A DNA stretch of 64,000 nucleotides, from NCBI RefSeq assembly GCF_025960875.1, contig NZ_JAODLR010000010.1, positions 62,001-126,000 on the forward strand. The letters run 5' to 3'. The DNA comes from Crystallibacter permensis (GTDB taxonomy: Bacteria > Actinomycetota > Actinomycetes > Actinomycetales > Micrococcaceae). Under the pieces are notes generated by a model. The model had not been told where the DNA came from, did no database searches, and saw nothing but the letters and a program-made list of their open reading frames with translations. Of this stretch, positions 11,013 through 44,776 are shown one piece after another. The translations under genes were made by a program, and so were the position numbers. Each line of letters begins with the position of its first letter. Position 1 is the stretch's first letter.

Positions 11013-12467
11013 TCATGATTCGATGACGGTGAACTGGCCCATCATGCCGTGGTCAGCGTGCCGGATGAAGTGGCAGTGGTACATGTATGCCGTTGTCGGG
11101 TCGGTGTAGGGGCCGAACATGAGTGCGATGCGGGCGGAGGCCCGCACGGGCAGGAAGACCGTGTCCTTCCAGCCGGAGAACTCCGGTCCCGGTTCGGCGC
11201 CGTTGATGTCCAGAATCCGGAACTGCACGCCGTGAACATGGAAGTTGTGTGGCTGGCTGTCCGTGTTGCTGACATTCCAGATTTCCGTCGTCCCTGCGCC
11301 GACGGTCGCGTCGATCCGGGACATGTCCATCAGTTTTCCGTTGATGTACATGCCCTTGAGGATGAAGCTGCGTGTGGCGACCGAGGCTTCCAGGGCGGGC
11401 GGCTCAAGGGTGGCCAGGGTCAGGGGCAGCCCGGGTGCAGCAGCCAGTCTCGCGGCTGCCCTGAACTGCAGCAGGTCCAAGACGTCATTGCCGCCGGCTT
11501 CATTGTTGAATTTTTCGCTCATGCCCAGCTCCTGGGCGAACGATTGCAGGACGGGTTGTTCCCCGGGCTGGAACCGCACCACGATTTCGGCCCGTTCCCC
11601 GGGTGAGAGCAGCAGTCGTTCCACGGCAACGGGGGCCGGCAGCAGGCCGCCGTCGCTGCCGATGACGGTGAACTCCCGGTTATCGCTGAACCCGAAGTTG
11701 AACACGCGGGCCGTGGCCGCGTTCAGGAGCCGGAGGCGCACGGTCTCAGTGGTCACGGAAAAGTGCGGGTTGACGGTGCCGTTGATCAGCATGGTGTCGC
11801 CCAGCAGCCCCGTCTGCGCATCCGAGGTCGTCGTGAAGGTTCGGTCGTCCTCGAATGCGCGGTCCTGGACGATCAAGGGGATGTCGTCGACCCCGTATTC
11901 TCCGGGCAGGCCCTGGTCCGCTCCGTCGCTGTCGACGATGAACATGCCGGCCAATCCCCGGGTCATCTGTTCTTCGGTCTGCCCATGGACGTGGGGGTGG
12001 TACCAGAGGGTGGCCGCGGGTTGGTCCAGTGTCCATTCAGGGGCAAATTCATCCCCCGGCGCAATGACCTGGTGGGGACCGCCGTCGTAGATGGCCGGCA
12101 GGTGCATGCCGTGCCAGTGCACGGTCGTGGCCTCTTCGAGGGCGTTCTCAATGGCGACGCGTACTGTCTCACCGCGCCGTGCCCGCAGGGTGGGCCCCAG
12201 AAAGGCTCCGTTATATCCCCAGGTAGGGGTCCGCCCACCGGGGAGAAAACGGCTGCTTCCTGCTTCGGCTGTGAGCTTGAAAACCCTTGTCCCGTTGGTG
12301 GCAACGGTGGAGGGAGCCAGCGGCGGAATGTTGAGTGAATTCGCGAAGTCCAGTGTTCCGGCGGTGGAAATGGGGTCACTGGTGCTGCCGCATCCGGTCA
12401 GGAGCAGCGTTGCGGCTCCCCCCGTTCCGAGCAGGAACGTGCGGCGCGAAACATGGTGGTACACCAT
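11013..12467 (-). CDS. multicopper oxidase (CueO/laccase type)
   Basis: A 484-residue protein. The N-terminus combines a Tat motif (SRRTFLLG) with a lipobox (LLTGC), so it is probably folded first and then anchored outside the membrane. All four copper-binding motifs are present: HWHGMH, WYHPHVHGQ, HNFHVHGVQF and HCHFIRHADHGMMG near the C-terminus, where the last Met is the type-1 axial ligand. Three cupredoxin domains can be traced. It likely oxidises Cu(I) or another small reductant. The next gene downstream encodes a small membrane protein of the opposite spacing; no operon partner is obvious. Confidence 0.92.
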   Translation of the reverse strand: MVYHHVSRRTFLLGTGGAATLLLTGCGSTSDPISTAGTLDFANSLNIPPLAPSTVATNGTRVFKLTAEAGSSRFLPGGRTPTWGYNGAFLGPTLRARRGETVRVAIENALEEATTVHWHGMHLPAIYDGGPHQVIAPGDEFAPEWTLDQPAATLWYHPHVHGQTEEQMTRGLAGMFIVDSDGADQGLPGEYGVDDIPLIVQDRAFEDDRTFTTTSDAQTGLLGDTMLINGTVNPHFSVTTETVRLRLLNAATARVFNFGFSDNREFTVIGSDGGLLPAPVAVERLLLSPGERAEIVVRFQPGEQPVLQSFAQELGMSEKFNNEAGGNDVLDLLQFRAAARLAAAPGLPLTLATLEPPALEASVATRSFILKGMYINGKLMDMSRIDATVGAGTTEIWNVSNTDSQPHNFHVHGVQFRILDINGAEPGPEFSGWKDTVFLPVRASARIALMFGPYTDPTTAYMYHCHFIRHADHGMMGQFTVIES

Positions 12468-12473
12468 TGCAGC

Positions 12474-12770
12474 CTAGGCTCGGACCCGGTCCGGGAGTGA
12501 ATCGCCTGTGCCCGGGCGGGCGGGCGGGTCCGGTATCCCGGGGCTGCTCGCTGACGCTGTGCCCGTCGGTTCTGCGGCCATTTCCCGGTAGCGGACGCGG
12601 CGGATGCGTTTGGCCATGGAGCGCATCAGCAGCACGATGGCGAGCACCATGAAGAAGGTCGCGAAGAATCCGAGTGCTCCGGGGGTGACCTGGTCGGGAT
12701 CGAGGCCGGGACGCAGTTTGGTTTCCTGGTCGGGGAAAGGATTGGTGACGCCCAGGATGAGATGTTTCAA
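12474..12770 (-). CDS. small membrane protein of unknown function
   Basis: A 98-residue protein with one membrane helix (ALGFFATFFMVLAIVLLMRSM, residues about 31-51) followed by an Arg-rich cytoplasmic segment and a Pro/Ser-rich tail. It lies 6 bases upstream of the multicopper oxidase on the same strand, so the two are probably co-transcribed. No function is recognised. Confidence 0.65.
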   Translation of the reverse strand: MKHLILGVTNPFPDQETKLRPGLDPDQVTPGALGFFATFFMVLAIVLLMRSMAKRIRRVRYREMAAEPTGTASASSPGIPDPPARPGTGDSLPDRVRA

Positions 12771-12855
12771 AGGGTTTTCTCCTCTACAAAAAGTGGTACG
12801 CCGGATAAGCCGGATGCCGCCACCTGCCCGACGCTGCGGCGGCCGTTGGCTTTCC

Positions 12856-13365
12856 TCAGGTATCGGTCCCGGTCCGGGGCTGCAGGAAGGCGCCCAGGAC
12901 GAACAGCGCCACTCCTGCCGTGACGAAGATATCGGCGAGGTTGAAGGTGGGAAACCAGCCCGTATGCAGGTAGTCCACGACGCCGCGTCCGTCGAGCCGG
13001 TCGATGAAGTTACCGGCCGCTCCGCCGAGCAGCAGTCCCGCGCCGGCCCTGGACACCCGGGTCATGGTGGGGGCCGACGAGAGGGCATACCAGACCAGGC
13101 CCGCAATGATCAGGCCGGTGGCTGCGATGATCACCCAGTCCGGCAGATCCGCGCCGAAGCTGAACGCGACCCCGGGGTTGTACAGCAGCCGGAAATTGAG
13201 CACCCCCAGATCGGCCGTCGCTCCGCCGGAGAGCAGGGCCTCGGCCGTTGACTTGACGGCCAGGTCGGCGGCGGCCAGCACCGCCGCCCAGACCAGCAGC
13301 ACCGCCCGGACCCGGCGGCCGGCCCGGATCGGTGTTGCGGTCCGGGCCGTGGATTCGGCGCTCAT
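12856..13365 (-). CDS. lspA: signal peptidase II (prolipoprotein signal peptidase)
   Basis: A 169-residue membrane aspartic protease that cleaves lipoprotein signal peptides. The two catalytic Asp motifs are seen: GNFIDRLDGRGVVDYL and FNLADIFVTAG. Four hydrophobic helices are visible. The start ATG at 13365 overlaps the stop of the P-type ATPase by 4 bases, so it is the third gene of an arsR-ATPase-lspA operon. A signal peptidase II gene linked to a heavy-metal ATPase is known from lead-resistance (pbr) loci, where PbrC is of this family. Confidence 0.92.
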   Translation of the reverse strand: MSAESTARTATPIRAGRRVRAVLLVWAAVLAAADLAVKSTAEALLSGGATADLGVLNFRLLYNPGVAFSFGADLPDWVIIAATGLIIAGLVWYALSSAPTMTRVSRAGAGLLLGGAAGNFIDRLDGRGVVDYLHTGWFPTFNLADIFVTAGVALFVLGAFLQPRTGTDT

Positions 13366-15314
13366 GCCGCCGGCTCCAGCACGGGAGCCTTCGCCGGAGC
13401 GAAGGCGGATTTGCGGCTGATCCGGCCTGCCCGCACGCCGTTGGCGATGACGACGATTTCCGCCAGTTCGTGCACCAGCACGACGGCGGCAAGGCCGAGC
13501 ACCCCGAACAGGGCCAACGGAATCAGCACGGCAATCAGCAGCAGGGACAGGCACACGTTCTGCAGCATGATGCCCCGGGTCCGGCGCGCGTGGTCGAGCA
13601 CCTGGGGCAGGTGGTTCAGGTCCTCTCCCATCAGCGCGATGTCCGCGGTCTCGATCGCGACGTCGGTACCCATGGCACCCATGGCGATGCCGGTATCGGC
13701 AGTCGCCAGGGCGGGGGCGTCGTTGACGCCGTCGCCGACCATGGCGGTCGGCTGCCGGGCCTTGAGCGTGCGGATAATCTCGGCCTTGTCCTCGGGGCGG
13801 AGGTCGGCGTGGACTTCGCTGATGCCGGCAGCCTTGGCCAGGGCGTTGGCCGTGATCGTGTTGTCGCCAGTGAGCATGGCCGTGGTGTACCCGGATTTGG
13901 CGAGCCGGGCGATGACGCCGCGGACTTCGGGACGCAGTTCATCGCGCACCGCCACGGCGCCGATCACCCGCGCGTCCTCTTCGATCAGCACCGCGGTGGC
14001 ACCGGCCTGCTGCATCCTCTCGACCTCGGCGGCCAGCGGCCCGGGAGCGATCCAGCCCGGGCGGCCAAGGCGGAGGCGTTTACCGTCGAGGCTGCCTTCC
14101 AGGCCGGCACCGGGGACCGTGTCCACATCGGTGACCACAGCCCTGTCGTCGGTTGCGGCGAGGATCGCGCGGGCCAGGGGATGTTCGCTGCGCGCTTCGA
14201 GCCCGGCGGCCAAGGCGAGTACACGCTCCCGGCTGACACCGTCGACGGAAGCAACATCGACGACTGCGGGCTGGTTGCGGGTGAGGGTGCCGGTCTTGTC
14301 CAGGGCGATGGTGCGGATTTTCCCGAGGGTTTCCAGGGCTCCCCCGCCCTTGATCAGGACACCGATGCGGCTGGCGGCGCCCACGGATGCGACGACCGTG
14401 ACGGGCACGGAGATGGCCAGGGCACACGGGGAGGCGGCGACGAGGACGACGAGGGCGCGTTCGAACCACAGCAGCGGTTCCCCGGCCAGGAAGCCGAAGG
14501 CGGTGATCAGGGCGGCAACGATCAGGATGCCCGGCACGAGCCGGCTGGCGATGGCGTCGGCGAGCCGCTGGCCCGGGCCCTTGCGGGACTGTTCGGCCTC
14601 GACGATGTGCACGATCCGGGCCAGCGAATTCTCTTCGCTGGTGCTGGTGACCTCGACTTCGAGCGGTCCGGTGCCGTTGATCGACCCCGCGTAGACATCG
14701 CTGCCCGGTCCGGCTTCTACCGGGACGGATTCCCCGGTCAGAGCGGAGGTATCCAGGGAGGTGCGGCCGGTAATGATCCGGCCGTCGGTGGCCAGGCGTT
14801 CGCCGGGTCGCACGACCATCCGGTCCCCGGGCACAAGCTGGGCCGGGGCGACCGTGGTCTCTGTGCCGTTGCGCAGCACGGTCGCTTCGGCCGGGACCAG
14901 ATCCAGCAGGGCGCGCAGGCCGCGGCGGGTTTTCGTCAGGGAGTATTCCTCGAGCCCTTCGGAGATCGAATAAAGGAAGGCCAGCATGGCCGCTTCCTCG
15001 AACTGTCCGAGAGCGACGGCGCCGGCGGCGGCGAGGGTCATCAGGGTGCCGACACCGATCTTGCCTTTCGCCAGGCGCTTCAGCGTGGAGGGAACGAACG
15101 TCCAGGCGGCAACGAGCAGCGCCGCGATTTCCAGCGGCAGCACCAGCCACGAGGGGGCACCGGCCAGGCCGGCGACCCAGCCGGCCAGCAACAGCACGCC
15201 AGCCGTCAGCGCGAAGCGGACTTCGGTCACCTGCCAGAACTTCACGGGCTCATGCTCCGCTGCCTCTGCCCCGGACCGCGGTTCCTCGTCATGGCTGCAG
15301 CAGGCGTCGCTCAT
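13362..15314 (-). CDS. P1B-type heavy-metal ATPase (Zn/Cd/Pb/Co exporter)
   Basis: A 650-residue P1B ATPase without a full heavy-metal-associated domain, starting MSDACCSHDEEP (a short Cys/His metal-binding tail). It has TGES in the actuator, the metal motif SPC in helix 4 (VAASPCALAIS), the phosphorylation site DKTGTLT, TGDN and GDGVNDAPALA. The penultimate membrane segment reads HELAEIVVIANGVR. The SPC motif with a conserved His-Glu fits the P1B-4/CtpG side of the family rather than classical CPC ZntA. It probably exports Cd, Pb, Zn or Co. It overlaps the arsR gene and lspA by 4 bases each. Confidence 0.92.
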   Translation of the reverse strand: MSDACCSHDEEPRSGAEAAEHEPVKFWQVTEVRFALTAGVLLLAGWVAGLAGAPSWLVLPLEIAALLVAAWTFVPSTLKRLAKGKIGVGTLMTLAAAGAVALGQFEEAAMLAFLYSISEGLEEYSLTKTRRGLRALLDLVPAEATVLRNGTETTVAPAQLVPGDRMVVRPGERLATDGRIITGRTSLDTSALTGESVPVEAGPGSDVYAGSINGTGPLEVEVTSTSEENSLARIVHIVEAEQSRKGPGQRLADAIASRLVPGILIVAALITAFGFLAGEPLLWFERALVVLVAASPCALAISVPVTVVASVGAASRIGVLIKGGGALETLGKIRTIALDKTGTLTRNQPAVVDVASVDGVSRERVLALAAGLEARSEHPLARAILAATDDRAVVTDVDTVPGAGLEGSLDGKRLRLGRPGWIAPGPLAAEVERMQQAGATAVLIEEDARVIGAVAVRDELRPEVRGVIARLAKSGYTTAMLTGDNTITANALAKAAGISEVHADLRPEDKAEIIRTLKARQPTAMVGDGVNDAPALATADTGIAMGAMGTDVAIETADIALMGEDLNHLPQVLDHARRTRGIMLQNVCLSLLLIAVLIPLALFGVLGLAAVVLVHELAEIVVIANGVRAGRISRKSAFAPAKAPVLEPAA

Positions 15315-33775: not shown

Positions 33776-33957
33776 CCAGCCAGCGACCGCGGGAAAACTC
33801 ACTGCAACCCATGCATGGCTCTGCAACCTGTGCTCTACGACCCCCGGTGCGGATACGTCCAGAATCAAAACAGACACGGGCGGTAAACGGCCGGCTCCAC
33901 AGGGACACCGCCGTCGGCTCAGCCGGATACCGCACCGAACACCGACAGGATCCGTCA

Positions 33958-35253
33958 ATGGCCTCAGGCAACACCCCCGCCCGCCGGCAGCCCCGAACCC
34001 CAGAGGGCATCACGCTGGGCCTGCGGCAGAACCTGGCCCAGTTCATGCTCCTCGTCGCCGTCAACGCCCTGGTCGGCGGCACCCTTGGCCAGGAGCGGAC
34101 GGTGCTGCCGCTGCTCGCCGGACAGGTCTTCCACCTCGACCAGTACACCTCCGCCCTGACCTACATCCTGGCGTTCGGGCTGGCCAAAGCCGCCACCAAC
34201 TACTTCGCCGGAACCCTCTCGGACCGCCACGGCCGCAAACCCGTCCTGGTCGCCGGCTGGCTCATCGCCCTCCCGGTCCCGGTCCTGCTGATCTACGGAC
34301 CCTCCTGGGGCTGGATCGTCGCGGCCAACGTGGTGCTCGGCATCAGCCAGGGCCTGACCTGGTCAACCACGGTGATGATGAAAATGGACCTCGTCGGCCC
34401 CGAACGCCGCGGCCTGGCCATGGGGTTGAACGAAGCAGCCGGTTACCTCGGCGTCGCAGGCACCGCACTGGCCACCGGTTACATCGCCTCCACCTACGGG
34501 CTGCGTCCAGGGCCGTTCCTGCTCGGTGCCGCCTTCATCGCGGTCGGACTCGGCCTGTCCGTCCTGGCCGTGCGGGAAACCCACCACCACGCCAAGGCCG
34601 AAGCCGCCGCCCATGTCCCGGTCCACGCCGGAAGCCAGGCCGGGCTGAGCAACCGTGCCGTCTTCACCCTGACCAGCTTCCGCGACAAATCCCTCTCCTC
34701 CGTCAGCCAGGCCGGGATGGTAAACAACCTCAACGACGGCCTCGCCTGGGGACTTTTCCCCGTCCTGTTCGCCGCCGCAGGGCTCAGCATCGAACGCATC
34801 GGCATCCTCGCCGCTCTCTACCCGGCCGTCTGGGGCGCCGGGCAGCTGGTCACCGGCGCGCTCTCGGACCGGATCGGGCGCAAACCCCTGATCGCCGGCG
34901 GCATGTTCGTCCAGGCCGCGGCGCTGGGCATGGTCGCCTTCGGGAATGACTTTGGAATTTGGCTTGCCGCCGTCATCCTGCTCGGTGCCGGCACCGCCAT
35001 GGTCTACCCGACGCTGCTCGCAGCGATCGGCGACGTCGCCCACCCCGGGTGGCGGGCACGTTCAGTCGGCATCTACCGGCTATGGCGCGATGGCGGATTC
35101 GCCGTCGGCGCCCTGCTCTCGGGACTCATCGCCGACGCCTACGGCATCCCGGCAGCCGTATTGACCGTCACCGGCCTGACTGCGCTCTCCGGCTTCATCG
35201 TGGCCATCCGCATGCGCCCCATTGACCACATAAACCGCCGCCCCACAGGCTGA
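33958..35253 (+). CDS. MFS transporter
   Basis: A 431-residue transporter of the major facilitator superfamily with twelve predicted helices. The loop 2-3 motif GTLSDRHGRKPVL and its repeat GALSDRIGRKPLI in the second half are visible. Substrate unknown. The frame is open upstream to 33811, but AGGA precedes ATG 33958. Broken relatives of this gene lie at 50468 and 59391, also downstream of a CstB-like gene, so this MFS type travels with the cst genes. Confidence 0.88.
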   Translation: MASGNTPARRQPRTPEGITLGLRQNLAQFMLLVAVNALVGGTLGQERTVLPLLAGQVFHLDQYTSALTYILAFGLAKAATNYFAGTLSDRHGRKPVLVAGWLIALPVPVLLIYGPSWGWIVAANVVLGISQGLTWSTTVMMKMDLVGPERRGLAMGLNEAAGYLGVAGTALATGYIASTYGLRPGPFLLGAAFIAVGLGLSVLAVRETHHHAKAEAAAHVPVHAGSQAGLSNRAVFTLTSFRDKSLSSVSQAGMVNNLNDGLAWGLFPVLFAAAGLSIERIGILAALYPAVWGAGQLVTGALSDRIGRKPLIAGGMFVQAAALGMVAFGNDFGIWLAAVILLGAGTAMVYPTLLAAIGDVAHPGWRARSVGIYRLWRDGGFAVGALLSGLIADAYGIPAAVLTVTGLTALSGFIVAIRMRPIDHINRRPTG

Positions 35254-35353: not shown

Positions 35354-35965
35354 CTATCTGGAAAAAAGTTTCTCACCGTCCGGACGCAGTTCCCCTGTGG
35401 GTGATACGTGCCGGTACAGGGTCTGCCGGGTGATTCCCAGCTCGTCGCAGAGGTCTCCGACCTTGGTGTCGGGCTGGCCCATGGATGCCATGGCGAGCCG
35501 GACTTTGGCCGGTGTCATTTTGTAGGGCCGTCCGCCTTTTCGTCCGCGGGCCCGTGCCGAGGCGAGGCCGGCGAGGGTGCGTTCGGAGATGAGCTCGCGT
35601 TCGAATTCGGCCAGGGCCGCGAAGATCCCAAAGACCAGTTTCCCGGAGGCTGTGGTGGTGTCGATGGCTGCGCCCTGTCCGGTGAGGACTTTGAGGCCGA
35701 TGCCCCGTTCGGTGAGGTTATGGACGACGTTGACCAGGTGGCGCAGGTCGCGGCCGAGGCGGTCAAGTTTCCAGACCACCAGGGTGTCGCCGTCCCGGAG
35801 GGCTTTGAGGCAGGCGGTCAGGTGCGGCCTGTCGTCGCGTTTGCCGGATGCCTTGTCTTCATACAACTGGCCGGAGTCGACGCCGGCGGCAAGCAGGGCA
35901 TCGCGCTGCAGGTCGGTGGTCTGTGATCCGTCGGTTTTGGAAACCCGCATATAGCCGACCAGCAT
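35354..35965 (-). CDS. tniR: serine resolvase of the transposon (TniR-like)
   Basis: A 203-residue small serine recombinase (MLVGYMRVSKTDGSQTTDLQ with active Ser9; VVWKLDRLGRDLRHLV; GRKGGRPYKM hinge; C-terminal HTH GDLCDELGITRQTLYRHV). It resolves cointegrates at the res site. It lies next to tniQ across a 90-base gap holding dyads, as in Tn402/Tn5053. Confidence 0.9.
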   Translation of the reverse strand: MLVGYMRVSKTDGSQTTDLQRDALLAAGVDSGQLYEDKASGKRDDRPHLTACLKALRDGDTLVVWKLDRLGRDLRHLVNVVHNLTERGIGLKVLTGQGAAIDTTTASGKLVFGIFAALAEFERELISERTLAGLASARARGRKGGRPYKMTPAKVRLAMASMGQPDTKVGDLCDELGITRQTLYRHVSPTGELRPDGEKLFSR

Positions 35966-36054: not shown

Positions 36055-37260
36055 TTATTCTAAGTCAGGCAAAGGGTCATTGATTCTCTGTTTGTGACAA
36101 AAGTCGAGGGGTATGTGAAGCTCGGCGAAGGTTTCCCGGAGACTGCCCACGGATTCTTCACTCCGGCACCCGTATCGTGCGAAGTCGTAGAGCTGCTGCG
36201 CGACGAGCGGGTCTACTTTGGCTGCTGCGATGCAGACTTCCGGTGCGTCCGTTGCCTGTTTCCAGAGCTCATCGAGAGTCGGCTTCTCTTGAGCGGTTGC
36301 TGTCCGTGTGCCAGGCCGTGTTCCGTCGCTGATCCGGGGGTTCGGTTCGGGACGCAGGAGGTGCGCGGAGGTACCCAGAGCGGTCAGTGAGCCGGCTTCG
36401 ATCAGTTCCATCGCGGCGGCGGCTGCTTCGAGCAGCTGCTGCTGGACGGCCCAATGAAGGGTCTCGAACGGCTGCCACGAATACAGGCCGGCCCGAAAAG
36501 GGTGGCCGCAGTGTTCCCAGACACGACGCACGTCCTCCAGTTGCCGGCCATATCGTCCCTGCGCGGTGGTGAGTTCGTCCAGGAGGGTCCGCAGCAGCCG
36601 GAACCAGATGCCGGCGTGAACCGGATACCGGGGAAGATCGACGGAACCGGTGGTTATCGCCTGCCAGGTCCGCCGGTCCATGAGGGACAGCGACTCCGGC
36701 AGCGGCCGCTGGTCATGGGCGGGAGTTGCCCACAGAATGTAGTCAGGAGGATGTCCTTCGTAGGTTTCGAGCCGGCGCCCGTGGACCAGGCAGCTGGCCA
36801 TGAGCGGCAATTGCCGGAAGAGCAGTAGCGCCGGGCTGGATTCCAGGCAGTCCGGGCATCCCCGCCGCGCCCCGGTTTCCGGCAGCCATGGCCGCCACTT
36901 CCGCGGGGCGTAGATATTGCGCCGCTTCGGCGGCAGGAGCACCGAGAGCTGGTGCACATAGGTTTCGTAAGCGCCGGGGGCAGGGATGAGGCTGTCGAAG
37001 AGCCATGGCACCCAGCCGGCCATGGTCATTGCGTTTACGCGGTGTTGGTCAAGACCGGTGCGCTTGGCGAGCTCTTCGAGCAGGTCCGTCGGCGGGTTCA
37101 GATCCAGCTCGGGGTCGCTGAGTTCCCTTTGGCCGAGTCCGTATTCGAGCAGCGCGTCGGAGTACATGCCGTAGCTGGCAGCGATCCGCCGCAGCCAGGA
37201 AGACAACGATTCCATTTCTACAGGTGCCGGGTGCAGGGGCCAGCGTTCCGGCGGTCTCAC
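36055..37260 (-). CDS. tniQ: TniQ-family transposition protein
   Basis: A 401-residue protein starting at GTG. The TniQ signature is at the N-terminus (PLHPAPVEMESLSSWLRRIAASYGM), and a zinc-finger-like set follows in the middle (GCPDCLES ... MASCLVHGRRL). TniQ links target choice to the transposase and ATPase. It overlaps the tniB stop, matching the order tniA-tniB-tniQ-tniR. Confidence 0.88.
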   Translation of the reverse strand: MRPPERWPLHPAPVEMESLSSWLRRIAASYGMYSDALLEYGLGQRELSDPELDLNPPTDLLEELAKRTGLDQHRVNAMTMAGWVPWLFDSLIPAPGAYETYVHQLSVLLPPKRRNIYAPRKWRPWLPETGARRGCPDCLESSPALLLFRQLPLMASCLVHGRRLETYEGHPPDYILWATPAHDQRPLPESLSLMDRRTWQAITTGSVDLPRYPVHAGIWFRLLRTLLDELTTAQGRYGRQLEDVRRVWEHCGHPFRAGLYSWQPFETLHWAVQQQLLEAAAAAMELIEAGSLTALGTSAHLLRPEPNPRISDGTRPGTRTATAQEKPTLDELWKQATDAPEVCIAAAKVDPLVAQQLYDFARYGCRSEESVGSLRETFAELHIPLDFCHKQRINDPLPDLE

Positions 37261-37714
37261 ATCAGTTCGCGTTCGAACAAGCGCCGCCGTTCGGTGGGTC
37301 CTGCGTAGTCGGCCATGACCAGGGTGCGGCGATTGATGCGTTCTTCACCGCTTTCCACGGCGGCGATCGCCGCGGTGGTCAAGAGCCGGGTGAGTTCGCC
37401 AATGGTTCCCTCGCTTCGGGTTAGCAAATACTGCGCCATATCGGGGGTAGCGATGTCCGAGGGGCGCTGCAGCGGCAGGGCGGCGGCGAAGCTGGCCAAC
37501 AACGACAGTGTGTCCTCACCCGTATTCCACAGGGGAAGGACGATGGGTTCGAACCGGTTCTCCAACTGATCATCGGATCTGACCGCAAGATACGCCTCCC
37601 GTGTTCCGACGCCGATGATCGGGATGCGCAGCTCGTTGCCCAGGAATCGCAGGAGATTGAGGAACTCCCGGCGGCTGTTGCCCTGCCCGGCGAGGACATT
37701 GTGCAGCTCATCGA
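37257..37714 (-). pseudogene. tniB: tniB, 3' part (interrupted)
   Basis: From the element junction the frame reads DELHNVLAGQGNSRREFLNLLRFLGNELRIPIIGVGTREAY, then NRFEPIVLPLW and the C-terminal helical part of the TniB AAA+ ATPase. Its N-terminal half lies at 42487-42941. Joined at the junction they give ...VRMLVID-ELHNVLAG, so only the 4.8 kb insertion breaks the gene. Confidence 0.9.
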
Positions 37715-37726
37715 CTTTACCGACCG
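37710..37726 (+). repeat. left inverted repeat of the Tn554-like element
   Basis: ATCGACTTTACCGACCG is the exact inverse of CGGTCGGTAAAGTCGAT at 42475-42491. The outer ATCGA lies in tniB codons; CTTTACCGACCG belongs to the element end. Confidence 0.85.
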
Positions 37727-37922
37727 CAGGAGCTCGTGAAGCGGCTCTGAACTGCGACGATACATAGACTACATGTCCGCGACGGCGAGTTGGGTCGATT
37801 TGCTGCAGCGTGTCGGGTGTTCTCGGTGTTGCTCGTCGCGGCGGGTTGCCTGCCCTTTTCCGCATCTGCTTGTTGAACTGCATCGAGGTCGCCGACGCGC
37901 GGCGGGCGTGGGCGCGATCCGG

Positions 37923-37954
37923 CCCGGTGACCAGGGATTTCCTTGGTCACCGGG
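37923..37954 (-). terminator. hairpin after the DUF6262 gene
   Basis: CCCGGTGACCA (37923-37933) pairs with TGGTCACCGGG (37944-37954) about 30 bases beyond the last gene of the element. It would end its leftward transcript. Confidence 0.7.
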
Positions 37955-37981
37955 CAGGACGGAGCGGCACGGTCTGGATTT

Positions 37982-38557
37982 TCAGGGGCCCGCGATCTGG
38001 GCTTCGAGGTCGGCGACGCGTCGGTCCTGGAAGCGCAGGTTTGAGCGGGCGGCCTTGAGCCGCTCGTCGAGCGTGCGGTTCTCGGCCGTCATCTGGCGGA
38101 CGCGCTGTTTGAGGGTGGTGTTCTCGGTGGTGATCCGCTGGACGGCTTCCTCTGTCCATTCGGCCTGCAAGTCACGGATCTGGCCGAGGAGTTCACCGAT
38201 GCGGGTGCGTTGGGTGAGGATCTCGGCTTGGGCGGCCTTGAGGCCTTCCTCGGCGTTCAGGGCGCGTTCGCGCCACGTCGCCTCGCGTCCGCTGTCCTGG
38301 TCTACGAGCATCTGGGACCGGCGTTTACCGGCCTCGGCCATCGCCGTGGCGATGGCGGTCCTGGCCTGGACGTTGTCGTAGAGGAAGGTGCGCGAGACAT
38401 CCGCTCGGCGGGCGACGGCGGCGACGCTGACCTGGGCTTTCTCGCGCCGGAGCCGAGCGATGGCCTGATGGACCCGCTCGAGGGCGGTTTCGGTCTTACG
38501 GCGGCGGGCGGCCTGGGCCGCTGCGGTGCGGGGCTCGGGGACGGTAGCGGTGTTCAT
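37982..38557 (-). CDS. DUF6262 (TnpC-like) coiled-coil protein
   Basis: A 191-residue protein. Residues about 15-75 form a helical HTH-like region (AIARLRREKAQVSVAAVARRADVSRTFLYDN), as in DUF6262. The rest is a long coiled coil (RTRIGELLGQIRDLQAEW, ENTTLKQRVRQMTAENRTLDERLKAA). Such proteins are the third gene of Tn554-like elements and help orient or assemble the recombinases. The ATG overlaps the tnpB stop by 4 bases. Confidence 0.85.
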   Translation of the reverse strand: MNTATVPEPRTAAAQAARRRKTETALERVHQAIARLRREKAQVSVAAVARRADVSRTFLYDNVQARTAIATAMAEAGKRRSQMLVDQDSGREATWRERALNAEEGLKAAQAEILTQRTRIGELLGQIRDLQAEWTEEAVQRITTENTTLKQRVRQMTAENRTLDERLKAARSNLRFQDRRVADLEAQIAGP

Positions 38558-41189
38558 GCGGCGTCCTGTTCGGGGTCGGTGTCCTCGATCGTGGGCGTAT
38601 CGATGTACTCGCTCTCCTCGTCGTTGCCCGCGTCGGCGAGGTCGGTGGCGCGGAAGGCGGTGGACCACACGCGGTGAAAGTAGTCCTGGGGTTTGCGCAG
38701 GTCCAGGGCGAGGGCGTCGTCGAGGAGGCCGAGGCCGGCCAGGGCCTTCTCCAGGCCATCGATGGCGCGGGCGGTGGGCTTGAAGTACTTGTGGAGGTAG
38801 TCGGCGGTGGCGTCGTCCGGGGCGCCTTCGGCCAGCAGCCGCCACTGCTCGCGCTTACGGCGCCAATAGAGGAGGTCGGCGCCTGAGAGGACGAACTTGT
38901 CGCAGTTGTGGCAGTCCAGGTTCCAGGGGCAGGCGCCGCCGCTGACGACGGGCTGGAAGGTGCAGAACCCGCCCTCGGCCGGCGTGCTGCGGCGCGACAG
39001 GTCGATCGCCAGTGCCTGGGCCTGCTGGCGGGTGAGCGGGGCGGCGTCCCCGGCGAGGAGCTCGCCGGGCTGGGCCGTGCCGGGGCCGGCAACCCAGACG
39101 TGCTGAAGCACGTTCTCCAGGTCGGAACTGGTCAGGTGAACATAGTGCTCCGCCATGCGATCACTGACCTGTCCGAGGTATCGGCGGATGTGGGTCAGTG
39201 TGGCGCCGTGGCGCAGCAGGTTGGTGGCCAGGGTGTGGCGAGCCTGGTGGGGGACATAGTGGCCGAGGTCCATGGCATCCACCCAGGGCCGGAACCTGCT
39301 GTAGAACCATTGGTGGGTCAGCGAAGCCGTCCCGTCGTGGTTGCGGTAGGTCGTGGGGAACAGGGCCAGCCCGGCGCGTTGGGCTCCGGTCGGCCGGTAG
39401 CCGTAGCGGGCGGTGAAGCGGTCCAGGGTCTTGCGCTGGCGTTCGGCGAGGATGCCGTAGAGGCGTTCGGGTATGCGGATCGCGGCGTCGTAGTTGCCGA
39501 CCTTGGTCGGTCATGCCAGAACATCGCCAGGCCGCCGTAGCGGCCGATGCAGTCCCACCGCGCGTTGACCACCTCGCCGAGGCGGCGGCCGGTGATGACG
39601 GTAGTCTCCCAGATGTCGCGCACGCCGTTGTCGTTGATGTCGTAGGTGGCGGCGAGTTCGGCCAGATTCGCCTCGTCGGCCAGAGCCCGGGCGACTTCGT
39701 CGGGGAAGGGCCGACGCGCGGTGCGGCCGGTGGCGGCGCCGGCGGCCGGGAACACGATGATGAACTCCCGTTCCAGGCCCAGCTGTTCGGCGGCACCGCT
39801 GTCGAGGGCCCCGCGCATCAGCTTGCGGACGGCGTTGAACACGAGCGACCGGGTGACGGTGGTGACGATGCTCCCGGTCCCGTCCGTCCGTTTGACGGCC
39901 AGTGAAGGAAGCCCTTCGCGTTCGCGGTGGCGCTGGTCGGCGACGAACCGCTGGGCATGGGCTTCCCGCAGGACCGCCGGGTCGTGGCCACCGCCCGGAA
40001 CGTCGACTTCCAGGAAGGCTCCCAGCTCGGCGGCGGCCCGGCGCAGGCCGTCGACCGGGCCGGCCGAGCGCGGGCAGCGCGGCGACCGCAGCAGGTCCGC
40101 CAAGTAGTCCCACGTCAGGTCCCGCAGCCAGCGCTGCGGGATGCCGGTCAGGTCGATGTGGCTCATCCGGTGCGGGAACAGCACCCCGAAGTGCTCGGTC
40201 TCCAGGAATCCGGCGTCCTTGGCCTGTTCAGGGGTGAAGTAGACCAGCCGCAGCTCGTGCAGGATCTCCTTGGCGATCGCCCCGGTGAACGCGGCGGACC
40301 CACCGGCGCCGAACTCGAAGTCGACCAGCGAGTCCACCTCCAGCGTGCGGCAGGTGGTCACCAGCGACCGGATCCAGCCCAGGTCCCAGCGGCTGGGCCG
40401 GGCCCTGCGGGTGTGGACGAACAACCCCCACTGGATCTCGGCCCGCACCAGGGGCCGCAGCCCGCGCAGATTGATCTGCCCCGGCCACGGCTGCGCGGGA
40501 ACGGCAGCGCACCAGCGCCGGAACGTGGCCTGGTCGCCGTACTCGATCGGCACCGCCTTCCCGAACTTCTCGTATCGCTGCCACCAGCTGTCCGGCATCG
40601 CGGCGTCCCCGGGCCGGCTGTCATGGCGGTAGCGGCTGCCGTGCCACGCGCACAGCCCCAGCGGGGAGTCGGCCAGATTCGGGCAGACGACCGCGCCGCA
40701 GGGTCCGTAGCCGGGGCACGCCTGTTCGTCGCTTACCCAGGCGGCGAAGGAGTCGTTGTCGTCTCCTTCGCCACTGCGTGCGGCCCAACGGCTCAGATGG
40801 CGCTGGCACAACCTCAGGTCGCTGCGGGCCGCCGGGCGTTCAGGGCAAATCCGGCAGATGGTCTCTTCCGTTCCGAGGCGCCGGTCCAGCCCTTGGGCGG
40901 CGGCCACGAAGGCGGCCTTGCCCACGCCTTGCTCGCTGTCGTGGGCCCATTGCCGCTGGTGTTCCGAGCACAGGTCCGACCCGCCGCTGCGGGTGCGTTC
41001 GCACCCTTCGACCAAGCACTCCCAGCGGTAGACCGCGTGGCCACCAGGAATCGCGATGACGTCCGGTCGGAAGATCGGGTCGAACGACGGCCCGCCGATC
41101 AGCGTGGTCAGGATCTCCAGCCGGTCGCGGCCGACCCGGTCCGGACGCTCGGCGAACAGCGGCCGAAGGTACTCCTGCCGCCGCATCAC
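38554..41189 (-). pseudogene. large tyrosine recombinase (TnpB-like), one frameshift
   Basis: About 878 residues if repaired. The first part (39520-41189) carries Cys/His pairs (ECLVEGCERTRSG, CRICPERPAARSDLRLCQRHL, CPNLADSPLGLCAWHG) and the box-I Arg in TGRRLGEVVNARWD. Near 39512 the frame breaks: MFWHD should be followed by QTKVGNYDAAIRIPERLY, which is in another frame. The second part has HQARHTLATNLLRHG (HxxR) and the nucleophile Tyr in AEHYVHLT, then a Cys/His tail (CPWNLDCHNCDKFV). The lost base may be real or an assembly indel. It overlaps both neighbours by 4 bases. Confidence 0.8.
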
Positions 41190-42361
41190 GCCTCACCCCA
41201 GACCGCGCGTAGTGCAGCGTCAAACGCCGGATCGTGGACGTCGACGTGCCCGTAGACCTCGTCGACCATCGCCGCCGACGCCCAGCCGCCGGCATCACGG
41301 GCGATCAGCAGGTTGCCGTCGGCGGCGTCGAGAACCGCGGACGTGAACGAGTGCCGGAACGCGTGGGGCTTCACGTGCCCCAGGCCAGCGCGTTTCCCGG
41401 CCCGGCCGAGCATCCGCCGGGCACCGACCGGGGACCACGGCTGACCGGCATCGGTGCCGTGCAACTGGACCAGGAGCATGCCGTGGTTGGCGCCGGCCGG
41501 GTATTCGGTGGTGACGTACTCGAAGTAGGCGTGCACCATCGCCGGACTGACCCGCTTGATCAGCCCGCCGGTCACGATGCCGCGCTCGACCCGCCAGGGA
41601 TGCTTGGTCTTCGCCTCGGCCCGGTTCGGGTTTCCCGGACGGTGGCAGACATGCAGGTGCGGGGTGCGGCACTGGCCGCAGGCCGCGTTCTCGCGTAGGT
41701 GCAGGTCGACCATGTGCAGCCCGCACAGTTCGCCGATCCGCAGGCCACCGTCCGCGAGCCAGGTCACCACCAGCCGGTCCCGGGCCGCGTTGACGGTGGC
41801 CAGCAGCTTCTCCCGCGCGCCGTCCGGGAGCATCTTCGGATGCCGACGGTGCGGCCCCGAGGGAGCAAGCGGGTTGGCCGGCAGCGAGGACTTCACGTGC
41901 CCGAGGAAGGAGCGGCGCCGGTCCGCTCGCGACGGCAGCCGAGACGTGTCGAGCTTCTTGCCGAGCTCCCCGTTGATGCCGTGGGAGGACTGATGCATGT
42001 AGAAGCCCTTCAGGCAGGCCGCCGCGGTAGACAGAGCCGAGCGTCCATAGGGGCGCTTGCCGACCCTCCACGGTTCCCCGAGCGGCATGCGGACCTCGGC
42101 GCCGACGATGCCCATGTAACGCTCAAGATCGCGCAGCCGCACCTTGTCGAAGGTCAGGCATTCACGCTCCAACCAGCGCAGGTGGTCCACCAGGTAGTAC
42201 GCGTAGGTCTTCTGCGTCCCCGAACCCTCATGCTGCCGCAGGAACCGGTCCGCCTCCTCATGGACTGTCCCCTCGGGCCACACGATCGTCCACGACCGCT
42301 GCCCATCCTTCCGATTGATCTGCTGGACCCTCAGGTCCCCAACCACAACGCGTCGTACCAC
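41186..42361 (-). CDS. tyrosine recombinase (TnpA-like)
   Basis: A 391-residue recombinase. Residues about 35-130 are the SAM-like core-binding domain. The catalytic domain has Arg208 (GGLRIGEL), H333-x-x-R336 (HAFRHSFTSAV), Trp360 in the His position (GGWASAA) and Tyr370 (DEVYGHVD). A Cys/His insertion (CGQCRTPHLHVCH) sits after box I. First gene of the element, 100 bases from its right end. Confidence 0.9.
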   Translation of the reverse strand: MVRRVVVGDLRVQQINRKDGQRSWTIVWPEGTVHEEADRFLRQHEGSGTQKTYAYYLVDHLRWLERECLTFDKVRLRDLERYMGIVGAEVRMPLGEPWRVGKRPYGRSALSTAAACLKGFYMHQSSHGINGELGKKLDTSRLPSRADRRRSFLGHVKSSLPANPLAPSGPHRRHPKMLPDGAREKLLATVNAARDRLVVTWLADGGLRIGELCGLHMVDLHLRENAACGQCRTPHLHVCHRPGNPNRAEAKTKHPWRVERGIVTGGLIKRVSPAMVHAYFEYVTTEYPAGANHGMLLVQLHGTDAGQPWSPVGARRMLGRAGKRAGLGHVKPHAFRHSFTSAVLDAADGNLLIARDAGGWASAAMVDEVYGHVDVHDPAFDAALRAVWGEA

Positions 42362-42406
42362 TTAATCCTCCATACCGACACCAGAACATGACGAACGTCC
42401 CGGTCC

Positions 42407-42491
42407 CGGTCGGTAAACGGGCCCGTGACAATCGGATCACAGGCTCGAACAGACATCACGAACAACACAAATCACGGTCGGTAAAGTCGAT
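42407..42491 (-). repeat. right inverted repeat of the Tn554-like element with an inner copy
   Basis: CGGTCGGTAAAGTCGAT (42475-42491) mirrors the left end. A further copy of its core, CGGTCGGTAAAC, lies inside at 42407-42418. A second recombinase arm site at one end only is common for tyrosine-recombinase elements. Confidence 0.75.
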
Positions 42492-42941
42492 GACAAGCAT
42501 GCGCACTCCCGTTGAACGCAGCAACTTCAGCGAGATCTGCTCCACGTCGGCCAGACGCCGGCGTGGTTGAAGAGGTGCACCGAGCGCCGCCAGGAGCGCG
42601 ATGTAGAAGCGCAACACGGAAGGCTCGGACGGCATCTGCACGCACAACACCGGAATGTTTTCCCGGTCTGCCTCGGTCACAGGTAGGTGCCCCCGGCGAA
42701 ACTTTTCCACGATCATCGACTTGCCGTTGTTCGTCGGCCCAATCAGCAACAGGTTCGGCATTCGCTGTTTGTCCGGCCAGCACAGCAGGGTCTCCAGGCG
42801 GGCCACCACCTCCACCGCGCGCGGGTAGCCGATCCACCGGTCGGCCCGGATCAGTTCAACCCGTTCGTTCGCAGGCAATCGGGCCGTGTCCCGCACACTC
42901 GGGTGCAGGTGCGACAACTCTGGTGCCTCGTAGTCGGCCAT
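42487..42941 (-). pseudogene. tniB: tniB, 5' part (interrupted)
   Basis: It starts MADYEAPELSHLHPSVRDTARL with the Walker A loop LLLIGPTNNGKSMIV (Gly68-Ser75). It reads into the element right after VRMLVID, where Walker B would continue. TniB is the AAA+ ATPase that activates the TniA transposase. ATG 42941 overlaps the tniA stop region by a few bases. Confidence 0.9.
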
Positions 42942-42943
42942 GG

Positions 42944-44632
42944 TCACCACTGCTCGATCTGATCGAATCGCAGCACCCGGGCCGCATCCGACACCGTCTC
43001 CGGCGCCTGATCAGCAAGGGCTTGCGGCGGGAGCAAAGGGGCTGGTATCCCGCCGCGCCGCGTCGTCGCTGCATTGCGGCGGTCGGCGTCGCGTCGCATG
43101 CGCTTGGTTGTTTTCGACGCAGTAGCCGCGATCTCTCTCATCTGCTCGATCATGCGGAACAATGCCGCCTCATCCACTTGCGCTAGGCCGCGCTCGTGCA
43201 GCCGCGCCAATGCGTGTCTGTGCTCCCACAGGCTCACAGACGGGTTCGCCATCGTCCGGTAAGGAACCTCCACATAATGAACCCCCTCCGGTTCCAACAC
43301 CCAGATCCGGCTGATGTCCCGGGGGTCCCGACGGATCAGAAACGGCCCAAGCGTGTCGCGCCGGCTGATCCACGGTTTCAGCACGTTCGAGAAATAGTGG
43401 ACATGGTCGATGACGAATCCCGTTCGCGTCAAGGTACGCCGCACGACGGGAAGGAAGTCGACCAGGAACGCTGTCGGGTTCAAGGCAACCGCCGGCAGCC
43501 CTGTGGCCGCCACTCCTTCTGCCCACCGACCGGTGGGCGTCTGCCCCAAGGTGCTGTGGAGGGTGCCGTGGTAGCTGGTCACGGCCAGGGTCATCCATTT
43601 CTCCAGCTCGCGCAGGGTCAGCGCCGCTTTCCGGTCCGAGTCATACCGGCCCCGTTCGACGGGATTGGAAAAGGTGGTTCCGGGAAGTTCGTGGATTTGC
43701 TGCATCGCGGTGCCGATCACCCTTTCCACGATCCCGCCATAGTGAGGCCGGCCCGGCGGGCGGTAGGCCAGCTGGATACCGTGTTGCTCGCATCCTCGCC
43801 GGAGCGCCTCGCTCTTGAATTCGCTGGCGTTATCCAGGTGCAGCTGTCTCGGCTTCCCGCTCATGGACCACTGCGCCTCAATACCCAAACTTTCAAGCGA
43901 TGGCCTTTTGTCTGTGCCGGCATGCGCCAGGCACAGCCCGACCGACACTGCCGAGGGCGCCTCCAGGGTGACGACCATGCCAACAATGCATCGGCTGTAG
44001 ACATCGATCGCGACAGTCAGATACGGGCGGCCGATCGGTTGGCGCTCCCGTTCGTCGACGACGATGACGTCGATGACCGTGTGATCGATCTGCACCTGTT
44101 CCAAGATTGTGCCGATCACCGGCACCTCGTCCCCGGCAGACTGCAACTGCCGCACCGCATTGGGGCCACCCCTGCGCCGGCCTACCTCAACTGGATTCAG
44201 CGCCCGGATTCGCCGCTCGACCGTGTTTCGAGCCGGGACAGGGAGCTGCCGTGCGCGGCACGCTGCAGCGATGTCGCGATACACAGCCGCCAAGGTACGT
44301 TTCTGCCGGGTCAGGAACTGCTTCCGCACGATCTCGCGGACGAGGTCTTCGACTTCGTCCAACAGACGCGCGGTTCCTTTCCCTCCGGAGGAGCGGCCCG
44401 GGGCCAAATCCGTCAGCAACCCAGACCCGGCGCGATGGCGTTTGATCAGCACATACACCTGGCGTCGCGATATGCCCAACGCCAGGGCAGCCGCATCAAC
44501 TGTCGCCCTGCCGACGACCGCGTGCGCTGCCAAGGGCGTGATCACCGCCGAAACTGACTTCGTCCGGTCCCACAAAGCATCGGGCATGGTCAACGTGCCC
44601 GGCTCACGAATGTGTGTAGATTCTGCATCCAC
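42944..44632 (-). CDS. tniA: DDE transposase of the Tn402/Tn5053 family
   Basis: A 562-residue transposase. N-terminal HTH domains (AALALGISRRQVYVLIKRH) are followed by an RNase-H-like catalytic core with Asp183 (QVQIDHTVIDVIVVD), Asp267 (QLHLDNASEFKS) and Glu303 (GGIVERVIGT), then the Mu-type C-terminal beta-barrel. The frame is open to 44680, but that part overlaps the end repeats; GGGAGG lies 6 bases before GTG 44632, which is taken as the start. Length matches TniA (about 559 aa). Confidence 0.9.
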   Translation of the reverse strand: MDAESTHIREPGTLTMPDALWDRTKSVSAVITPLAAHAVVGRATVDAAALALGISRRQVYVLIKRHRAGSGLLTDLAPGRSSGGKGTARLLDEVEDLVREIVRKQFLTRQKRTLAAVYRDIAAACRARQLPVPARNTVERRIRALNPVEVGRRRGGPNAVRQLQSAGDEVPVIGTILEQVQIDHTVIDVIVVDERERQPIGRPYLTVAIDVYSRCIVGMVVTLEAPSAVSVGLCLAHAGTDKRPSLESLGIEAQWSMSGKPRQLHLDNASEFKSEALRRGCEQHGIQLAYRPPGRPHYGGIVERVIGTAMQQIHELPGTTFSNPVERGRYDSDRKAALTLRELEKWMTLAVTSYHGTLHSTLGQTPTGRWAEGVAATGLPAVALNPTAFLVDFLPVVRRTLTRTGFVIDHVHYFSNVLKPWISRRDTLGPFLIRRDPRDISRIWVLEPEGVHYVEVPYRTMANPSVSLWEHRHALARLHERGLAQVDEAALFRMIEQMREIAATASKTTKRMRRDADRRNAATTRRGGIPAPLLPPQALADQAPETVSDAARVLRFDQIEQW

Positions 44633-44642
44633 TCCGCTACCT

Positions 44643-44776
44643 CCCTTGGTGTGCAGAGGAGTAGTAAGCAACATCGACATTAGTGCAGAGGAGTATTGAA
44701 AAACCAGCGCTCAACACTCGCCTGCACAACCGCGAAAACAGGCGGCCCGCCGTGCAGGCGAGTATGGAAAATGACA
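44643..44776 (-). repeat. right terminal repeat with multiple transposase sites
   Basis: Reading inward from 44776: TGTCATTTTCCATACTCG, then CTGCAC-type motifs ATACTCGCCTGCAC, an inverted copy GTGCAGGCGAGTGTTGA, AATACTCCTCTGCAC and CTACTCCTCTGCAC. The outer TGTCATTTTC is the Tn402/Tn5053 signature. The inner motif (ACTCGCC/ACTCCTC) differs from AAGTCG at the 25927 and 7251 ends. Confidence 0.75.

Follow-up and report, generated by a model that had tools for sequence, protein, structure and literature searches.

A Tn554-type element of 4,770 bp, carrying tnpA, tnpB and tnpC, interrupts the tniB gene of Crystallibacter permensis at Walker B, with the Asp codon on one side and the Glu codon on the other. 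In the window, i.e., the whole stretch of 64,000 nucleotides that was analyzed, the TniB ATPase of one transposon is split by another transposon. Throughout, we use "Walker B" for the profile columns at the insertion points, which we assume to represent this motif. The element is probably a Tn554-type transposon whose recombinase complex reads a dyad in the target DNA, whose sites are codon-phased hydrophobic-to-acid stretches, and whose far core derives from its donor site. The insertion point, the structure of the ends, the rule for the cores (where cases were informative), the recurrence of the insertions and their common pattern were each established at the level of sequence comparison.

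The interrupted tniB gene and its element

The whole insertion with both of its 6-bp cores occupies positions 37710..42491 (minus strand), and the element proper positions 37716-42485. The first-pass annotation of this DNA had proposed that tniB is split at the Walker B codons, and this was borne out. The 5′ half of tniB (42486..42950, minus strand) ends with ...VRMLVID and covers columns 1-126 of the Pfam TniB profile. The 3′ half (37257..37715, minus strand) reads DELHNVLAG..., has the foreign core as its first codon pair and covers columns 126-188. The Asp is counted in both halves, with each 6-bp core encoding one, and no residue was lost. All eight intact relatives read through this point. 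Judged by its genes, the interrupted transposon has a Tn5053/Tn402-like set, which comprises tniA (rve, Mu-transpos_C; 42944..44680), tniB, tniQ (36055..37260; PF06527, 6.6e-19) and the serine resolvase gene adjoining tniQ (35354..35965; PF00239, 5.4e-44), all on the minus strand. An MFS transporter gene (33811-35253) adjoins the tni genes; its product was below every NCBIfam cut-off among the matches listed.

The gene content named at first, two tyrosine recombinases and a DUF6262 protein, agreed with the profile matches, with the addition that the long recombinase is split over two frames. All three genes run in one direction (minus strand), and PF00589 was matched in both recombinases. The tnpA-like gene (41186..42361) encodes a tyrosine recombinase of 391 aa (PF00589, 1.6e-14). 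Its residues R208, H333, R336, W360 and Y370, which we take to have the catalytic roles typical of tyrosine recombinases, were invariant in an alignment of five sequences. The tnpB-like gene for the long recombinase (38554..41189) overlaps tnpA at 41186-41189, with no gene between them, and its PF00589 match lies in the C-terminal part. Its frame is broken near 39,501-39,507, where tblastn matches with intact relatives split; by our count, tnpB was matched as one long piece in 33 of the 42 relatives searched. With tnpB broken, the window element may have lost autonomous movement. The tnpC-like gene (37982..38560) encodes the DUF6262 protein of 192 aa (PF19776, 4.8e-10).

The ends of the window element match exactly over 17 bp, as had been noted, and the reading of these 17 bp was corrected: each end consists of 11 bp of element sequence and a 6-bp core. 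The element-owned left terminal repeat is TTTACCGACCG (42475..42485, minus strand), and the right one is its inverted copy, TTTACCGACCG on the plus strand (37716..37726). A subterminal copy, TTTACCGACC, lies within the left end at 42408..42417 (minus strand; offset 68 in the element).

Rearrangement or an assembly error, rather than insertion, might also have left a gap in tniB, and the genome is indeed a draft of 66 contigs; nothing that would support such an origin was found, and we regard it as extremely improbable. Against it stand the exact ends, the continuity of the intact relatives, and the 44 insertions besides that in the window that have both ends placed and carry similar ends. Searching the genome with the element gave one full copy and a match of 42 bp that falls within the element. 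A search with the N-terminal half of tniB gave a single match in this genome, the interrupted gene; a second, intact tniB, which had been named as a sign of rearrangement, was not found. With exact ends, a single tniB and continuous intact relatives, a rearrangement origin was rejected, and the gap in tniB is a real insertion.

Empty sites and the 6-bp cores

The intact tniB relatives (L109-L116) are uninterrupted at the insertion point in 8/8 cases and read I-D-E-L-H-N there. The closest of them, on an Arthrobacter plasmid (L113; 88.8% and 91.7% ungapped DNA identity to the two tniB halves), has the site GTC ATCGAC GAG. From this comparison, the window target was almost certainly GTC-ATCGAC-GAG. 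Because L113 carries ATCGAC, the tnpA-end core (attL, ATCGAC; 42486..42491, minus strand) is the native Walker B codon pair I-D, and the far core (attR, GTCGAT, encoding V-D; 37710..37715, minus strand) is a foreign 6-bp fingerprint. It is this distinction that divides the 17-bp repeat into 11 bp of element and a 6-bp core on each side. All eight intact relatives encode I-D at this point, and GTCGAT is native in none of them. The restored target had been described as a palindromic ATCGAT. This had to be abandoned, as ATCGAT occurs in just one of the eight intact relatives, L113 carries ATCGAC, and the GTCGAT at the far end is foreign.

The rule for the far core was taken from elements in yifB. 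Intact Streptomyces yifB sites read CTGGAC or CTCGAC, which is L-D, in 17/17 cases. These 17 came from 20 loci, of which L149 is itself the gene that the L013 element occupies, and L156 and L159 were missed by the motif. The yifB elements with unequal cores have the L-D core at the tnpA end in 4/4 cases, and their far-end cores encode D-D (L079), V-E (L083), R-K (L069) and K-K (L070). The same arrangement is described in the accessible text of PMC10214605 for SEs and Tn554, where attL keeps the attB core and attR carries a 6-bp fingerprint; in Tn554, the 6-bp core on the donor's left side moves to the right-hand side of the new site. Our comparisons appear to extend this rule to actinobacterial elements. 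The Tn554-type core exchange would thus be legible in the sequence itself, the tnpA end keeping the native core and the far end showing that of the donor, and the far-end core would offer a means of tracing the earlier location of an element.

Among the 45 elements for which both ends were placed, the cores were identical on both sides in 22 and unequal in 23. Equal cores carry no information on the core rule, and they fit a foreign fingerprint only if the donor core was the same or if the mismatch was repaired. The far-side cores fitted NTNGAN in 13 of the 23 unequal-core elements, or in 13/18 without the rve targets, compared to a window background of 1.1%. These far-side cores suggest that the donor sites resembled the same kind of site. 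By the same logic, the source of the window far core GTCGAT would be a V-D site, or an I-D site in the opposite orientation. One relative (L054) lies antisense at a V-D/I-D-type AAA_22 site and has GTCGAT as its left core; we infer that a hop may have led from an L054-like AAA_22 site to the window tniB.

Relatives and their target genes

Of 394 genomes from the class, 8 had TnpA relatives, counting the genome of the window itself; 36 plasmid records had them as well, of which 14 were taken in. From the genome collection, the best 80 of 107 TnpA relatives were kept, which correspond to 79 loci. The tnpA-side junction was placed by an inner end resembling TTTACCGACC, ~110-150 bp upstream of tnpA, and the far junction was placed where possible. 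Left out before counting were L019, which shares the flanks of L018 for about 16 kb; L011 and L012, which are the same elements as L043 and L067; the fragments L009, L010, L016 and L017; the distant L105-L107; and the cyanobacterial L117 and L118. The final tally comprises 94 insertion loci, with targets by our own assignment. In viral contigs, 12 pattern matches were obtained, none of them confirmed as a relative. A search for the helicase clade in 351 genomes gave matches in four, three of them distant (41-44% identity).

The set with both ends placed (n = 45; 38 sense, 7 antisense) was picked by a protein reading that continues across the gap, and this choice therefore favors in-phase sites. 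Going by the record titles and the window, all 45 sites are in actinobacterial DNA. As had been expected, relatives share the ends of the window element: TTTACCGACC is exact in 32/45 elements on the tnpA side and in 25/45 on the other side. Kept outside this set despite a plausible second end were L075, L101, L102, L119, L100 (which has a stop a short way upstream in its presumed frame), and L092 and L121, where the insertion is out of codon phase. Only the tnpA-side end was used for, e.g., L013, L023, L027, L028, L041, L042, L051, L054, L060, L064, L076, L078, L080, L084, L085 and L096, and also for five loci of the helicase/RarA clade.

The 94 loci comprise 28 at Walker B, 30 at other codons for hydrophobic residues plus Asp/Glu, 15 elsewhere, and 21 unassigned. 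The Walker B loci belong to five ATPase groups, namely YifB (12), TniB (6), AAA_22 (5), SF2/ResIII (4) and a RarA-like AAA protein (1). The profile match ends at a constant column in each family: 126 for TniB (window, L018, L053), 91 for AAA_22 (window, L018, L035, L042, L046, L052), 132 for ResIII (L014, L098, L099) and 111-113 for Mg_chelatase (L069, L074). The ResIII match of L097 stops before the junction, and that of L122, whose left end is DYLFID, is sub-threshold, so L122 was counted among the unassigned targets. The 30 other hydrophobic-plus-Asp/Glu loci lie in genes for a DUF5655 protein (9), a HAD-like protein (6) and an ATP-grasp maturase (4), with single loci in HD, DNA polymerase III PHP, AAA_33-like, 3HCDH, GP88, ATP-dependent DNA ligase and ADP-ribosylglycohydrolase genes and four in unnamed ones. 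The names HAD-like, AAA_33-like and RarA-like are our presumptive labels; the HAD-like gene had no family match in NCBIfam or Pfam. The DUF5655 profile match lies beyond the insertion site, not at it, and the match to ADP-ribosylglycohydrolase does not reach the Pfam cut-off, with the product annotated downstream in the record. For the 3HCDH gene, the empty-site motif was matched in 3/20 Streptomyces loci. Eight of the 15 loci elsewhere are in one rve-type transposase gene, four per orientation. This transposase gene type was struck at the same point both ways (L037, L039, L044 and L048 vs. L040, L041, L045 and L050), and these sites are mostly a poor fit to the general pattern described below.

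The suggestion that the element uses a conserved ATPase motif as its attachment site stands for the 28/94 loci at Walker B of TniB and other ATPases. It does not stand as a general rule: strand-acid codons other than Walker B account for 30/94 loci and further places for 15, so the site is not specific for ATPases. Similarly, the extension to any TniB- or IstB-type gene holds for TniB (6 loci), whereas no IstB insertion was seen among the 94 loci. An element specific for Walker B, with the ATPase motif as its site and the other targets as occasional mistakes, would account for the twelve loci at YifB Walker B and for a clade with TTTTCC(T/T)CTC-type ends, of which 5/5 members are at Walker B (L014, L095, L097-L099). 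We consider it quite improbable given the non-Walker-B share of the tally and given that near relatives of the window element (88-90% TnpA identity) lie in HAD-like, DUF5655-protein, HD and 3HCDH genes. As the sole target, Walker B was rejected on account of these other targets among the relatives.

In a FastTree phylogeny of TnpA, Walker B targets fall into several separate groups that switch to other genes, with low support for the deep branches. The tree also bears on whether the recurrence is inflated by inheritance, i.e., whether this is a strictly site-specific transposon with one attB gene per lineage whose insertions in related species were mostly inherited. The targets do cluster on the tree (ATP-grasp, HAD-like and DUF5655-protein groups), and related Streptomyces carry insertions in the same gene. 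However, insertions in one gene type differ in length and cores, two copies within one Streptomyces acidiscabies genome (L021, L022) occupy separate places, in two similar genes, and have different far cores, and Walker B is used by several separate TnpA clades, with the low deep support already mentioned. Inheritance as the main source of the recurrence is therefore unlikely.

The DNA pattern at the sites and its relation to known elements

The profile of the 45 sites, with 18 target groups weighted equally, has T at -8, -5, -2 and core position 2, and A at core position 5, +2, +5 and +8. The sites thus form a degenerate dyad around an nTnGAn core, with T at every third base on the left, mirrored by A on the right. 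In the target genes, these T and A positions are second codon positions. When each target family was left out of training, along with near kin, 34/45 true sites ranked within the top 1% when nearby positions of either strand were scored (mostly 5,942 positions, fewer on short contigs). The 11 sites outside the top 1% were those in rve antisense (4/4) and rve sense (2/3), IS5, DnaE-LLFER, L063, L066 and L079. The four antisense rve sites ranked at 14-68% of positions, and the IS5 and DnaE-LLFER sites at 11-12%.

Relatives at unrelated sequences had been named as an outcome that would speak against a shared site; a cross-training test instead showed the targets to be related at the DNA level. 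After training on the ten non-Walker-B groups with ten second-position columns, 15/15 Walker B sites ranked in the top 1% and 11/15 in the top 0.1%, compared to 2/15 and 0/15 with the twenty other (first- and third-position) columns. The reverse test placed 14/21 sites in the top 1% with the second-position columns vs. 2/21 with the others. Nine poorly fitting sites (rve 3, rve antisense 4, IS5, DnaE-LLFER) were left out in both directions. Flanks of 869,569 bases were also scanned with a profile whose training set had left out Walker B. Of the matches in likely genes, 1,503/1,981 were in codon phase, compared to 1,467/4,361 random positions; 86 were at a hydrophobic strand plus D/E vs. 6 random, and 22 were Walker-B-like vs. 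1. The DNA pattern by itself is therefore enough to predict codon phase and to enrich for Walker B. This enrichment is far below that of the real insertions, and subfamily preference must add to it.

A possible though doubtful account of the phasing is that the recombinases want only a T-rich left and an A-rich right side, while GC-rich codon usage imposes the 3-bp periodicity: where genes are high in GC, A and T are free to occur mainly at second positions, so that sites would look codon-phased. That all 45 sites are actinobacterial fits this account, as does the enrichment of true sites by a phase-free score (any T to the left, any A to the right), with a median rank of 3.0% and 14/45 sites in the top 1%. 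However, an untrained dyad score in the second-position phase was clearly better (median 0.4%, 28/45 in the top 1%), and dyads in the first- and third-position phases performed at chance (0/45 in the top 1%). GC bias could be the source of this advantage of the phased score, and it may make part of the periodicity.

In the dyad-reading transposon that we favor, two recombinases and a TnpC-like protein would exchange strands over a 6-bp overlap, and the recombinase complex would recognize a dyad in the DNA with informative bases at three-base intervals. Within coding sequence, T at the second position would mean a hydrophobic residue and A a polar one. Good sites would therefore be codon-phased strand-to-acid motifs, i.e., stretches that pass from hydrophobic to polar residues and include an acidic one, with Walker B (hhhhDE) as the foremost case. 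Insertion would be possible in either orientation. The 6-bp core of the target would remain at the tnpA end, with a different core at the far end, as seen in the informative cases; the far core would be a copy of the one at the preceding donor site, as reported for SE elements and Tn554. Subfamilies would then settle on favored genes. More tentatively, and with slightly less than even confidence, we propose that by reading bases three apart the recombinases track protein hydropathy, tolerate wobble and hop between the catalytic motifs of unrelated families, so that the 6-bp memory consists of the codons of the active-site residue that the element interrupted last. If so, the spacing of a target rule would match the genetic code, the recombinases would have a wobble-tolerant site, and one family would use conserved active-site codons of unrelated genes.

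Tn7 uses a conserved coding sequence, glmS, as its target. Conserved codons are likewise targeted here, but one degenerate site serves in many unrelated proteins and the gene is cut inside the motif. The window element resembles Tn554 of Staphylococcus aureus in its gene layout (three genes) and in the movement of a 6-bp core. However, Tn554 has a unique integration site according to the part of PMC3414803 that covers it, whereas the family of the window element uses many genes; the relatives lack this one-site trait, which need not define the wider family. Actinobacterial Tn554-related elements were defined by Van Houdt et al. 2012 (PMC3414803), who, in the portion available, report their homology to Tn554 proteins. 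Like the window element, these have adjacent short and abnormally long tyrosine recombinases and a TnpC-like third gene, all in one direction, and like the present family they occur in actinobacterial plasmids and chromosomes. Section 10 of that paper contains no target-site analysis and supposes several similar attB sites in multi-copy genomes; what is added here to that section is the target pattern, the core exchange and the ends. SEs (PMC10214605) and GInts (PMC5385486), in the accessible parts of these papers, also pair an ordinary recombinase with a large one and have a TnpC/Srap-type gene, and SEs share with the window element the attB core at attL and the 6-bp fingerprint at attR (PMC10214605). 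They differ by a fourth gene (tfp/ginC; PMC10214605, PMC5385486), which the window element lacks, judged from its ORF layout. The SE hosts given there are Gammaproteobacteria (PMC10214605), and the reported locations of GInts include the end of ssb genes (PMC5385486). Our literature search, which covered mainly papers outside subscription journals, yielded no recognized report of Walker B codon insertion or of codon-phased sites. While actinobacterial Tn554-like elements are known, the proposed target rule, a codon-phased degenerate site, would be new to the literature searched and is worth testing.

Several relatives had additional features. The plasmids of Anabaena (L117) and Brasilonema (L118) carry distant relatives with an extra recombinase gene, the set being two short recombinases, one long recombinase and a DUF6262-type gene; no T/A-pattern site was seen in these two, where the element ends themselves were not located. 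About 8.8 kb past the left end of L086, a second far-end-like repeat is followed by an antisense HAD-like coding sequence (PLLFLDID), which suggests another copy or remnant of the element family. In L098 and L099, restriction-modification genes follow tnpC (11377-15131) as apparent cargo. In one Mycolicibacterium vanbaalenii strain, two plasmids carry these element genes with their cargo, each time in a different SF2-type gene.
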